A stretch of 64,000 bases of DNA from positions 2,542,001 to 2,606,000 of the forward strand of contig NZ_CP014945.1 in the NCBI RefSeq assembly GCF_001606025.1, in the 5' to 3' direction. The stretch comes from Psychrobacter alimentarius (GTDB lineage: Bacteria > Pseudomonadota > Gammaproteobacteria > Pseudomonadales > Moraxellaceae). A program made the translations under genes and the position numbers. Under the pieces are notes generated by a model, which made no database searches, was not told the DNA's origin, and worked only from the letters and a program-made list of their open reading frames with translations. Below are positions 35,789 to 47,873 of the stretch, in pieces (position 1 is the first letter of the stretch; every line of letters begins with the position of its first letter).

Positions 35789-35823
35789 CTCACACTCAGC
35801 TAGTTTATTATTAATGTAACTAA

Positions 35824-35878
35824 AAAAGGTATAGTCACTATCTCGAACGACGTGTTCGAGATAGTGACTATACCTTTT
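35824..35878. terminator. Perfect 25-bp hairpin, bidirectional terminator between miaE and the acidic-protein cluster
   Basis: The arms at 35824-35848 and 35854-35878 are exactly complementary over 25 bases around the five-base loop GACGT. They start with AAAA and end with TTTT, so both transcripts end in U's. This is much longer than the other terminators here. Confidence 0.85.
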
Positions 35879-35941
35879 ATATATCAGTGCATAATGAATT
35901 GGTTATACTACAAAATAGAGAGACTGCTAGATAGTGCACGG

Positions 35942-43788: not shown

Positions 43789-43914
43789 ACGGTCATACTT
43801 ATTTATCATTGCTGAAATGTTATAAAAGCCGCATACTCATTTAACTTACCCTACCCCATTATTTCTGCTTAGTGGTACTATTCGACCATTCCCACTCAAT
43901 CACGAGACTTGATT

Positions 43915-44730
43915 ATGTTTAAACTTGCAGCGCGACCCAATATCTATACGAGCGCCTCACTCAGCGTGTTAACCGCTACTGCATTATTCAGTGTGGCTAG
44001 CGTTTCTAGTGCCATTCCTTTTCTTGATAAAAACCTGCCAACTGACAAAGATGCTGTCCTCAGCGTGGGTGTCAATGTCATGGCCGTCAAGTCTGCCTAC
44101 AATTTAGATGACAATACCGAGTTCCGTGTATTGCCAGGCGTATTTTATGATAACAATAGAGTCTACGCGCGCGGGGCACAAGCGGGTGCCTATCTAATCA
44201 ATGACGGCACCAATCAGTTGTCAGTCTATGCGCAACCGTCTGGCAACAGTTTTGATCCTGATGATGCCAGTGGCAATTTGGCAGAATTGGACGAGCGTAA
44301 AATCTCAGCGTCGGCAGGTGTGAGCTATCAGCGCCGTACGCCTATCGGTGCTTTCCGCGCCCAAATAGCGACAGACGTTTTGGATAAAAGTGGTGGTAAC
44401 ACGGCGCGCTTGACTTATATTGGTAGAATCAGCGCAGATAAACTCACCATCTATCCAAGCTTTGGTTTTGAGTACTTCGATGAAGATTACAACGACTACT
44501 ATTATGGCGTGACCGAAGCAGAATCAGCAAAATCAGGCGTTGAACCTTATAAGTCTAACAATAGCCTGAACCCGTATATCAATATTAGCGCCAACTATGA
44601 CTTCAATGAAAACTGGGCAGGATTTGCCAATCAAAGCTTGAGTTATTTGCCAAATGAGCAATACGATAGCCCAATGGTCAACTCACGTACGGATGCAACG
44701 ACGACGCTTGGTTTGCTTTATAAGTTCTAA
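43915..44730 (+). CDS. MipA/OmpV-family outer membrane protein
   Basis: 271 residues. A signal peptide (about 1-33, ending S-S-A) is followed by a beta-barrel pattern. The late 'YNDYYYGVTEAES' and the terminal '-L-L-Y-K-F' with C-terminal Phe are typical of MipA/OmpV proteins. The N-terminal hydrophobic stretch is clear (A-S-L-S-V-L-T-A-T-A-L-F). MipA scaffolds peptidoglycan enzymes in E. coli, but most relatives are uncharacterised. ATG at 43915 is chosen over TTG at 43909. Confidence 0.8.
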   Translation: MFKLAARPNIYTSASLSVLTATALFSVASVSSAIPFLDKNLPTDKDAVLSVGVNVMAVKSAYNLDDNTEFRVLPGVFYDNNRVYARGAQAGAYLINDGTNQLSVYAQPSGNSFDPDDASGNLAELDERKISASAGVSYQRRTPIGAFRAQIATDVLDKSGGNTARLTYIGRISADKLTIYPSFGFEYFDEDYNDYYYGVTEAESAKSGVEPYKSNNSLNPYINISANYDFNENWAGFANQSLSYLPNEQYDSPMVNSRTDATTTLGLLYKF

Positions 44731-44752
44731 TTCAGCTTAGATTTTTGATATG

Positions 44753-44792
44753 AAAAAAACCTTGCCGAGTGATGTGGCAAGGTCTTTTTTTT
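44753..44792. terminator. Bidirectional terminator between the MipA/OmpV gene and the abi gene
   Basis: CCTTGCC/GGCAAGG stem with nine-base loop, A's left and eight T's right. Its last 21 bases (44772-44792) recur exactly, inverted, at 45818-45838. Confidence 0.88.
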
Positions 44793-44811
44793 ATAGAACA
44801 TTTGATAAAAA

Positions 44812-45690
44812 CTATACTTTAACCTTTGAGATATTTTCTCCAATTTCTTGAATAGCTGCCTTCAATACATGTAAACATATTTTGGCGGTATCTTCTCTTG
44901 GATTAAATCCAACACTCATTTGCTGATGCGGATGAATATAGTTCCGAAAATCTCGTAGCGTATGGCTAAATCTCTGAATATCATGTTGTACCAAACCTAA
45001 TTCATAAGCAACATCAATAAAAGAGCTTAGCGACCATTTAGAGAGTTCGTAAACTTTACCTGATTTATCCTTAGGAGAGGATTTTGCAGTATTAAAATGT
45101 CTAGGATACTGATTCGCTAAACCTAACAAAACTCCTTCGAGAGTACTGCCTGCTATGATAATCACAGACAAATAGGCTTCTGAAGAATAGCACCTTTCTA
45201 TTTCTTTTATTCTTCCTTCTATTACTTCCGACACCATTCCTTCTAAACCAATTTTTTGTACAGAAACATTTGAAAATTCCTGACTTAAAAATTGGTTCTC
45301 AGTATTAGTCTGATTAGGTTTTAAAGGCTCCTGCACCTCAATCTTATCCAACCGCTTAAAATCAATATTAGCACCGTTACGAACTACCTTCCATTTATCA
45401 AAAGCAATATATTTATTAAATCCCGCGATATAGTTATCTAAGTCTTCTAAACGGTCTATAAAGTTGGCAGGATTAAATAATTCTTTGATACAGCAATCTA
45501 GCTGAGGAGTTCCATTAATACCTTCCAATTTTTTATCAGTATATACCCAGCGTGATGGGAAACCTTGTTCGTAAGTATCATTGAATCCAAGATTATTAAA
45601 TAGGCGAACAAGCTGAGAACCTGACCTATACTCAGTATCTTCATTAATCAAAATACGTAACTTCTCAAGCGACTTAGAACTTAAAAACAT
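44812..45690 (-). CDS. Abortive-infection protein with Abi_C (HEPN-like) domain
   Basis: 292 residues. The C-terminal half (about 155-285) fits the Abi_C pattern: a helix 'LSVIIIAGSTLEGVLLGLANQ', 'KWSLSSFIDVAYELGLV', then R-D-F-R-N-Y-I-H-P, which has the R-x(4-6)-H spacing of HEPN ribonucleases. The N-terminal half (about 1-125) is a separate domain with 'FNNLGFNDTY' and 'DNYIAGFNKYIAFDKW', which I cannot assign. Such genes halt phage growth by killing or arresting the host cell. The gene is clearly AT-richer than its surroundings: two 60-base lines counted were 27% and 35% G+C, against 53% for one in fumC. It sits alone between two related terminators. The ribosome binding site GGAGCTC precedes the ATG. 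Confidence 0.78.
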   Translation of the reverse strand: MFLSSKSLEKLRILINEDTEYRSGSQLVRLFNNLGFNDTYEQGFPSRWVYTDKKLEGINGTPQLDCCIKELFNPANFIDRLEDLDNYIAGFNKYIAFDKWKVVRNGANIDFKRLDKIEVQEPLKPNQTNTENQFLSQEFSNVSVQKIGLEGMVSEVIEGRIKEIERCYSSEAYLSVIIIAGSTLEGVLLGLANQYPRHFNTAKSSPKDKSGKVYELSKWSLSSFIDVAYELGLVQHDIQRFSHTLRDFRNYIHPHQQMSVGFNPREDTAKICLHVLKAAIQEIGENISKVKV

Positions 45691-45815
45691 TCATGAGCTC
45701 CAGTTTTATAACATACACAATAATATGAAAATATATATCTAAAAATCAGTCATAGCGTTTCTCTCTAGCAATCAGTATATAGTGTTACTCTCTTAATTTG
45801 ATATGCTAATTACAA

Positions 45816-45857
45816 CCAAAAAAAAGACCTTGCCACATAGCGTGACAAGGTCTTTTT
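45816..45857. terminator. fumC terminator, inverted near-copy of the one at 44753
   Basis: ACCTTG/CAAGGT stem within AAAAAGACCTTGCCAC and its partner, with eight A's left and five T's right. 21 bases (45818-45838) are the exact reverse complement of 44772-44792. Confidence 0.85.
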
Positions 45858-45883
45858 ACTATTCTAAAAAACTATTAGATAGC

Positions 45884-47287
45884 TTACTTAGGATGTACCA
45901 TATCAGCAGGAATGACCCACTCATCGAACTGCGCTTCAGTTAATAGCTCTAGCTCAACCGCAACTTGCTTCAAGGTTTTGTTTTCTTTGTACGCAGTCTT
46001 AGCGATTTTCGCAGCGTTTTCATAACCAACATGACGGTTCAATGAAGTCACTAGCATCAATGAGTTGTGCAAGAAGTCATCGATTTTGTCTTTTACTGGC
46101 TCGATACCAACGGCACAGTTTTCGTTGAAGCTGTTGCACGCATCACCAAGTAGCTTGATGGATTGCAATAAGTTAAAGGCGATCACTGGCTTATATACGT
46201 TTAGCTCAAAGTTACCTGATGCGCCAGCCATGCTGATAGTCACGTCATTACCCATGACTTGCGCGACAACCATCGTCATTGCTTCTGATTGCGTTGGGTT
46301 TACTTTACCCGGCATGATAGAAGAGCCTGGCTCGTTCTCAGGAATGGTCAACTCGCCTAAACCACAACGAGGACCTGATGCCAACCAACGAACGTCGTTC
46401 GCAATTTTGTTTAAGCTCGCTGCCAATGTTTTTAGTGCGCCTGACGCAAATACTTCGGCATCACGAGCGGCTAGTGCTTCAAATTTGTTTGGTGAGGTGA
46501 CAAATGGCAAGCCAGTCAAAGTCGCTAGTTGCTCCGCTGCTTTTACTGCATAGTCAGGATGGGCGTTTAGACCTGTACCAACCGCGGTGCCCCCTAGTGG
46601 CAATTCATATAGACCTTGTAACGCGTTGTCGATACGAGTCAATGAATGATCAAGTTGGCTTACATAGCCGCTAAACTCTTGGCCTAATGTCAAAGGCGTC
46701 GCGTCTTGTAAATGCGTACGACCGATTTTTACGATGCTATCAAATTCTTTGGCTTTTTTATTTAAGGTATCGCGTAATGCTTGTACCGCTGGGATCAATA
46801 AGCTGTTGATCTGACGAGCAGCCGCCACACGAATCGCCGTTGGGAAGCTGTCATTGGTAGATTGCGCGTGGTTTACATGGTCATTTGGGTGAATTGGCGT
46901 GTAGCTGCCGCGCTCAGAACCCGCGATTTCATTGGCACGGTTGGCAAGTACTTCGTTCATGTTCATGTTTGACTGTGTGCCAGAACCTGTCTGCCATACG
47001 ACCAATGGGAACTGATCGACCAGACCACCATTGATGATTTCGTCAGCAGCTTGTACGATTAAGTCACGCTTGTCGCCGTCGATACGCTCTAGGCTTGCAT
47101 TGGTGATGGCAGCGGCTTTTTTGACCAGTGCCATCGCTTCAATCATTGGACGTGGCAATGTCTCGCCACCGATTTTGAAGTTTTCGCGGCTACGCTGAGT
47201 TTGCGCACCCCAATAAGCATCAGCTGGGACTTCTACGTTGCCCATAGTGTCTTTTTCGGTACGAGTTGCCTGATTCTGTGTCGACAT
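45884..47287 (-). CDS. fumC: Class II fumarate hydratase
   Basis: FumC interconverts fumarate and malate in the TCA cycle without an iron-sulphur cluster. The 467-residue protein carries the superfamily signature '[13 protein letters not shown]', the '[14 protein letters not shown]' region, '[19 protein letters not shown]' and '[16 protein letters not shown]'. It begins '[25 protein letters not shown]', the usual FumC N-terminus. Full length. It is stable to oxygen and is often used under oxidative or iron stress, which fits the sodC and dps genes in the window. Single gene with terminator. Confidence 0.97.
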
Positions 47288-47459: not shown

Positions 47460-47873
47460 TCATCCTAGCTTCGTATCCTTCAATTCTCTAATATATTCAT
47501 TATAAATGGCAACTTGTTCTTCTCTACCATCGTGATAAAAGTCAAAAAATGCACGCTGGGCAAAACACTTTGGTGTAATGTTGTAATCCTCTACAGAGTT
47601 TCGCCATATAAATCCTTCGTCATCTTCATGACTGTGCTCCTCATCTTCATAAGAAAATTGATAGATATACCCTTCAGGAATACTTGGATCTATAATGTCA
47701 AAAATACGTTTATCATAAAGACAAGGCCCTACGCCATCTTCTCCATCAATACGATAATATTCTTTCTGAATTTCTATAACTTGATAAGTGCTGCCTTGTC
47801 TTAAACTGGTTCTATCAAGGACTTTTTTGTAGTAGTCATCACACTCACTATAACATTTAAGCCTAACTTTCAT
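47460..47873 (-). CDS. Hypothetical protein, low G+C
   Basis: 137 residues, soluble, rich in acidic and aromatic residues ('YRIDGEDGVGPCLYDKR', 'FSYEDEEHSHEDDEGFIWR'). I do not recognise a family. It might be an immunity-type or phage-derived protein on composition alone, but no toxin gene lies beside it. A strong ribosome binding site, AGGAGG, precedes the ATG, so it is likely expressed. One line counted was 35% G+C, lower than fumC. It lies between fumC and the folate cyclo-ligase gene on the opposite strand. Confidence 0.6.
   Translation of the reverse strand: MKVRLKCYSECDDYYKKVLDRTSLRQGSTYQVIEIQKEYYRIDGEDGVGPCLYDKRIFDIIDPSIPEGYIYQFSYEDEEHSHEDDEGFIWRNSVEDYNITPKCFAQRAFFDFYHDGREEQVAIYNEYIRELKDTKLG

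Follow-up and report, generated by a model that had tools for sequence, protein, structure and literature searches.

A putative abortive-infection gene in an interchangeable-cassette slot between fumC and mipA of Psychrobacter, with locus-specific terminators at the boundaries

The 292-aa gene between fumC and mipA in the 64,000-nt stretch of Psychrobacter alimentarius DNA analyzed here (the window) can be read, with moderate confidence, as a stand-alone abortive-infection effector in a slot for interchangeable cassettes, with locus-specific bidirectional terminators at the slot boundaries and exchange between species by DNA uptake and recombination (Table 1). The interval itself is a cassette site at which related Psychrobacter species swap genes. 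At 34.4% G+C the gene is poorer in G+C than mipA (45.9%), the whole window (42.3%) and fumC, as the earlier note had claimed, although the G+C content of fumC is 47.7% and not the 53% given there. It is the sole ORF of at least 80 aa between fumC and mipA in this genome, and no recombinase or integrase gene was found among interval ORFs of that size. Across fumC from the slot lies another low-G+C ORF, of 137 aa (window 47460-47873, minus strand).

Table 1. Features of the fumC-mipA slot and its flanks, in window coordinates
Feature	Position	Strand	Basis
Abortive-infection-type gene (putative), 292 aa	44812..45690	-	ORF; N-terminal part common to Stk2/Abi_C proteins; C-terminal HEPN-type motif
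T_M, predicted mipA-side bidirectional terminator	44753..44792	.	folding of both strands; sequence tracks cargo across genomes
T_F, predicted fumC-side bidirectional terminator	45816..45862	.	folding of both strands; comparable hairpin 3′ of fumC in 68/87 closed intervals
Spacer, mipA stop to T_M	44731..44752	.	
mipA/OmpV-like gene, right flank of slot	43909..44730	+	name from the earlier note; closes 87/105 fetched intervals
fumC, left flank of slot	45884..47287	-	name from the earlier note; match in 105/105 genus genomes

For comparison across the genus, we fetched the fumC 3′ end and up to about 6 kb from each of 105 Psychrobacter genomes; the 18 intervals that were open, with short contigs or mipA out of reach, were omitted from closed-interval counts. 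The 87 closed intervals ranged in length from 79 to 5205 bp. Six were empty sites of 79-194 bp that had a single hairpin and lacked any ORF of 90 aa or more, and a seventh interval (496 bp) had neither a hairpin nor such an ORF. Mechanically called ORFs of at least 90 aa in the closed intervals formed 51 cargo clusters, oriented both ways (61 versus 51), and up to three hairpins per interval alternated with genes. The empty one-hairpin sites and the varied cargo in relatives bear out the suggestion of the earlier note that a cargo gene was acquired at the terminator of convergent genes. Matches to the 292-aa protein (E ≤ 0.001) were present in 7 of the 105 genomes; four were nearly full length (80-100% identity), all of them directly downstream of fumC, so that 101 of the genus genomes are without a close homologue and the gene is not one that all relatives carry. 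Across the family, 12 of 299 genomes have a homologue; Psychrobacter sp. NZS113 and P. frigidicola are among the organisms with the gene.

Frequent cargo included an Nm-ACP-type gene (C00) and a gene that looked peroxiredoxin-like by eye (C01). Cargo with matches to defense families comprised RloB/AbiLii with an AAA_21 partner (the partner being AbiLi as inferred from the tally), PD-T7-4, NsnA/GmrSD with an HEPN gene, a NucC-like nuclease, type I/IIG subunits, and a C5 methylase alongside a TdeIII-type restriction enzyme. Defense-labeled cargo occupied only 13 of the 87 closed intervals, 4 of these 13 with the 292-aa gene itself, and toxin-antitoxin-like genes (the C06/C18 pair named by eye) occupied 7, giving 20 of 87 with either kind. 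Many of the 39 cargo representatives, with C00 set apart, had no Pfam match at E ≤ 0.01.

Searches with the 292-aa protein against Pfam, NCBIfam and the PDB returned nothing usable: there was no match at E ≤ 10 in the two family libraries and a single meaningless one (E = 1.4) among PDB sequences. An identity as Pfam Abi_C (PF14355) is thereby not supported, and the protein gave no match to DUF4145 (PF13643). The N-terminal half, in which the earlier note could name no domain, is matched by the PADLOC Stk2 model at residues 20-105 (E = 1.7e-9), and two PHROGs match residues 19-65 (E of about 2e-6 and about 4e-6), with a third weakly at residues 75-162 (E = 0.058). The protein resembles Stk2 over this part only: the match is confined to model positions 22-116 of 500, the remainder of the model beyond position 116 is unmatched and no Pfam kinase was found in the protein, which gives no sign of the Ser/Thr kinase domain of Stk2. 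A Pfam scan of ten relatives detected Abi_C in three (L157, L166 and L167), and two others leaned weakly to DUF4145 (L161, 17.6 bits; L160, 13.1 bits), under the cut-off of 23.1. Profile comparison joined our protein to the three Abi_C relatives at 99.3% probability over residues 1-216, whereas comparison with two PD-T7-4 sequences found no relation. An HEPN-type motif at the C-terminus, R246-x6-H253 (LRDFRNYIHP), fits Rx4-6H, and R246, F248, R249, N250, H253 and P254 are invariant among 13 and 16 aligned proteins. Because the similarity to Abi_C proteins ends before this motif, the N-terminal part would be one common to those proteins, and the C-terminal part probably belongs to another HEPN-like type. 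What the earlier note called an HEPN/Abi_C defense protein therefore stands as a protein of abortive-infection type with an invariant R-x6-H, but without the Abi_C name.

Relatives were detected by tblastn in 23 of 72,556 plasmid records, several of them annotated as 'abortive infection family protein'. One relative, on a cyanobacterial plasmid (L166), has restriction subunits S and R as its annotated neighbors on either side, and another, in a metagenome-assembled genome (L161), sits by eye in the apparent order hsdM-hsdS-x-hsdR; we take this placement between S and R to be the position of PrrC-like guards. No homologue was found in 50,697 phage records or in an IMG/VR scan with the single sequence, whereas an IMG/VR scan with alignment A1 detected 13 loci, 12 of them near full length at 53-65% identity. 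In six (L170-L173, L177 and L178), the gene presumably lies just after a large terminase gene, judged by eye. On these six viral contigs, the homologue is followed by a 313-aa gene, possibly as a phage-borne exclusion pair, and a further viral contig (L175; 4465-5601, minus strand) carries a homologue of the 292-aa gene together with a protein that, by eye, resembles C41, a PIN-domain cargo from a different fumC-mipA interval.

HEPN abortive-infection proteins such as AbiJ and DUF4145-like ones combine an exchangeable N-terminal domain with a C-terminal Rx4-6H motif, according to passages of PMC3710099. The 292-aa protein is like them in its C-terminal Rx4-6H and in having a relative beside restriction genes, and unlike them in its lack of a Pfam Abi_C match, with weak DUF4145 similarity in two relatives only. 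A possible kinship of its N-terminal domain to AbiJ-NTD1 is suggested by similar fusion partners (kinase and HEPN) described in the same passages, although no AbiJ-NTD1 model matched in the profile libraries searched. As judged from sequence, the gene would add a new member to a type of abortive-infection protein that is already known.

Both flanking hairpins fold on both strands with z-scores of -5.4 to -6.2 and look like bidirectional terminators. They contain the same exact 21-mer, ATGTGGCAAGGTCTTTTTTTT, at 44772-44792 on the plus strand and 45818-45838 on the minus strand, in agreement with the earlier description of two terminators with 21 common bases in opposite orientation. With up to 3 mismatches allowed, the 21-mer occurs at these two places only in the 3.35-Mb genome and is thus not a genome-wide terminator sequence; an uptake-sequence reading of the hairpin arm was ruled out because the genomic copies are too few. 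The pair topped the 9 inverted repeats found with arms of at least 24 nt and spacing of up to 6 kb (45 nt, 82% complementary), and a local palindrome at window 35804-35898 (45-nt arms, 80% complementary) came second. T_M and T_F align over 57 bp at 79% in inverted and over 37 bp at 78% in direct orientation, and the inverted alignment was better in 14, worse in 3 and equal in 5 of 22 genomes in which one detector called two hairpins. Since each hairpin is nearly palindromic, however, their opposite orientation proves little.

Across the genus, the intervals (140 kb) contained 127 copies of a relaxed hairpin motif, whereas 762 kb of sequence past mipA at the same loci, both strands included, contained none. 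A second hairpin pattern was matched in 62 of the 105 genomes, with four places outside the locus (coordinates read manually). The relaxed motif lies 3′ of fumC in 68 and beside mipA in 39 of the 87 closed intervals, and within 170 bp after C00 or C01 in 27 of 31 cases. On the mipA side a different hairpin was counted in 33 intervals by one detector and in 37 by another; such counts depend on the detector, as detectors disagree and strict ones miss long-loop forms. Similarity of T_F to T_M within a genome was not above that between genomes (26 genomes, p = 0.90), and there is no sign of recent in-place duplication.

Many cassettes have demonstrably moved between species. Identity at 4-fold sites between P. 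alimentarius and genome G065 was 92% for the 292-aa gene, 71% for fumC, 60% for mipA and 43% for an lldD-like gene, and the corresponding values for genome G070 were 90%, 77%, 49% and 41%. Silent-site identity to P. frigidicola was 54% for the gene against 35% for the lldD-like gene, so a transfer involving that species, if any, is older. Of 135 same-family cargo pairs, 63 had a silent-site identity more than 0.15 above that of lldD and 3 showed the reverse, with pairs having too few silent sites scored neither way. The sample comprised at most 12 pairs per family; pairs in which lldD was missing were left out, as were five core-like families and those with a single closed member. Some cargo families appear vertical, such as C02 (1/10).

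The extent of the moving unit was estimated by matrix regression, in pairwise tests that account for phylogeny through flank distance only. T_M (36 genomes) tracked the spacer and the cargo (p = 0.008) and not mipA (p = 0.87), whereas the last 60 bp of mipA by the stop tracked mipA and not the cargo (p = 0.374; 87 genomes), and the 24 bp preceding the stop tracked both. On the other side, the fumC trailer tracked fumC and not the cargo (p = 0.20), and T_F (68 genomes) tracked the trailer and the first cargo and not fumC. A mipA-side terminator class, in a crude classification, was common to 80 of 98 same-cargo pairs (p = 0.0005). T_M is thus statistically associated with the cassettes and goes with them, and from this tracking the exchanged unit seems to run approximately from one terminator to the other, taking T_M along. 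Co-transfer of the flanks, which crossovers lying far inside fumC or mipA would be expected to cause, was nearly absent (residual 0.8%, p = 0.048).

Breakpoints of homology were counted in 3645 genome pairs with different cargo. Next to mipA, the breakpoint fell on the mipA stop or the spacer in 1950 pairs. Another 897 pairs had it at the outer edge of T_M, 333 at the inner edge and 288 within the hairpin; in 107 pairs it lay further out, and 70 had it inside mipA. Next to fumC, 2209 pairs had their breakpoint at the fumC stop, 617 had it 11-70 bp beyond the stop and 534 had it 110-200 bp beyond; 84 pairs lost homology inside fumC already, and the breakpoints of 201 were elsewhere. The flanking genes are therefore mostly homologous up to their ends, with the variable part between them. 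Homology commonly ends at a hairpin edge, but it often ends at a gene stop instead, which weighs against the proposed explanation.

Paired terminators may be a general feature of this genome. In 1.26 Mb of the chromosome with 582 terminators, 7 of 1529 near pairs scored higher than any of 20,000 random pairs; six of the seven, the fumC-mipA pair included, are not tandem paralogues, and the seventh (G000:C1:1118673), a tandem paralogue pair, was set aside as trivial. The hairpin sequence of such pairs varies among loci. Gene 3′ ends are duplicated as well. The uvrA 3′ end and its terminator form a direct repeat of 171 bp at 86% (G000:C1:2672270-2673460; L227 and L245), which takes in roughly 115 bp from the end of uvrA together with trailer and terminator and encloses a gene that is LysE-like by eye. 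In 30 uvrA loci of the 105 genomes, viewed up to 1.5 kb downstream, this repeat was found in P. alimentarius and G040 only, and it was not seen in the sister genome G088 over that distance; beside it lies a 564-aa gene of 32% G+C that is DUF262-like by eye. At valS of the same genome, a 127-bp direct repeat covers the terminator plus, by arithmetic, about 70 bp of the valS end. Near-identical 40-nt terminators lie about 1.7 kb apart on the valS side (G000:C1:2883436-2888790; L238), and the repeat adjoins a 651-aa ATPase-like gene of 33% G+C. Second, truncated copies of the valS 3′ end occur 184-500 bp downstream in 9 of 30 valS loci (L308-L312, L314, L318, L327 and L333), where the match covers the gene end with no clear terminator. 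At pgsA, 11 of 30 loci repeat 20-41 bp of the post-stop stretch, none with a gene remnant.

Inside the fumC-mipA interval, a 3′-end remnant of fumC or mipA was found in 4 of 98 tested, and in one of them (L110) the repeat continues through the terminator for 277 bp. The sister genome G088 has a 97-bp mipA remnant about 30 bp from a terminator, the same spacing as at the real mipA; it matches the mipA of its own genome and that of P. alimentarius equally (78/97 each), so that a donor/recipient reading with the remnant as the recipient's copy is not supported. In the L051 interval of the sister species, a remnant of the mipA 3′ end lies by a terminator at about +938 to +1081 after fumC, an arrangement suggestive of a newer cassette having joined next to mipA. 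Repeats at gene 3′ ends and terminators vary in length between about 30 and 277 bp, some being direct and others inverted. Additive joins would be the expected outcome of homology-anchored, one-sided illegitimate recombination during transformation, a process known from Acinetobacter. ComEC and DprA matches are present in P. alimentarius and say little on competence because 10 and 11 of 14 control genomes have them too. With the recipient-copy prediction having failed and flank co-transfer nearly absent, the mechanism of exchange is one that we infer. Tentatively, a genome-wide form of integrase-free gene gain anchored at terminators can be considered, in which DNA joins the 3′ end of a core gene and brings in a gene plus a second copy of that end with its bidirectional terminator, the duplicated terminators then marking out a lasting slot for the exchange of defense and other genes among species.

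Several other origins of the paired hairpins were weighed. The earlier note proposed that the fumC terminator was duplicated in place, in inverted orientation, when the gene entered, and the exact inverted 21-mer, the better inverted alignment in 14 of 22 genomes and the six single-hairpin sites are all in its favor; nevertheless, T_F and T_M are no closer within than between genomes, T_M tracks the cargo rather than mipA and orientation is weak evidence in near-palindromes, which leaves this model improbable. An old terminator duplication whose products later traveled with the cassettes is still compatible with the data. Site-specific integration, by a tyrosine recombinase or transposase (own or in trans) that uses and duplicates 3′ ends or hairpins as attachment sites, could account for the resemblance of the gene-3′-end duplicates to att duplications and for transposase-like genes in a few other intervals (C23 and C51, named by eye). 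We regard it as similarly implausible, given that the 292-aa gene stands alone among ORFs of at least 80 aa in its interval, that paired hairpin sequences vary by locus and that the repeats range so widely in length and occur in both orientations. Convergence, in which both flanking genes evolved similar terminators under selection, is very unlikely: hairpins with A-tracts and T-tracts are common to terminators by function, and another mipA-side hairpin type exists in many genomes, but the motif is found 127 times inside and never outside the intervals, and seven near pairs, one of them a tandem gene duplicate, score above every random pair.

For the protein, the alternative is a housekeeping or stress RNase rather than a defense function. 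That many cargo clusters have no Pfam match is consistent with such a role, which we nonetheless consider unlikely in view of the patchy distribution of the gene (4/105 genus and 12/299 family genomes), its horizontal movement, its homologues on viral contigs and the annotated position of one relative between the S and R subunits of a restriction system.

In integron cassette arrays, genes and hairpins alternate, as they do in Psychrobacter; unlike those arrays, the interval of P. alimentarius has no integrase, and cargo ORFs across the genus point both ways. The closest known kind of slot, by analogy, would be the minimal mobile elements of Neisseria, here with terminator boundaries. Passages of PMC3082526 and PMC3898611 describe these as a conserved gene pair with differing whole-gene cassettes between them, by strain. 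The Psychrobacter slot likewise places different whole-gene cassettes between two conserved genes (fumC in 105/105, mipA closing 87/105), here between species rather than strains. It is unlike the elements as described for Neisseria in its repeated locus-specific boundary terminators, and it is further set apart, on the Psychrobacter side, by few crossover signs inside the flanks and some additive events with 3′-end duplicates. Inverted repeats of one sequence also form terminators in the case of Neisseria uptake sequences, of which a passage of PMC3898611 reports nearly 2000 copies genome-wide, whereas the Psychrobacter sequence is confined almost to one locus. The slot is thus minimal-mobile-element-like, with locus-specific terminators as common cassette boundaries for its unusual feature; no description of the fumC-mipA site or of terminator-bounded minimal mobile elements was found in the literature searched.

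In the proposed explanation, the N-terminal domain of the protein would sense infection and the HEPN-like C-terminus, by virtue of its invariant R-x6-H, may act as an RNase that stops the cell. A locus-specific bidirectional terminator is common at the slot boundaries, so that transcription would be expected neither to run from an insert into its neighbors nor to enter it from them. Cassettes have moved between species, as silent sites show, and the mipA-side terminator is statistically associated with this movement; the route is probably DNA uptake and recombination anchored at conserved gene ends. Some events are additive: they duplicate the host gene 3′ end, together with the terminator at uvrA and valS in P. 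alimentarius. If this is true, single genes, including those for defense, would need no integrase of their own to settle beside core genes, and the transcription of their neighbors would be undisturbed. Paired locus-specific terminators, sometimes with a gene 3′-end remnant, would be a sequence signature for listing such slots elsewhere, and the origin of recombinase-free gene-swap hotspots would become a directly testable question. The finding suggests a simple way in which bacteria may trade genes while leaving the neighbors undisturbed.
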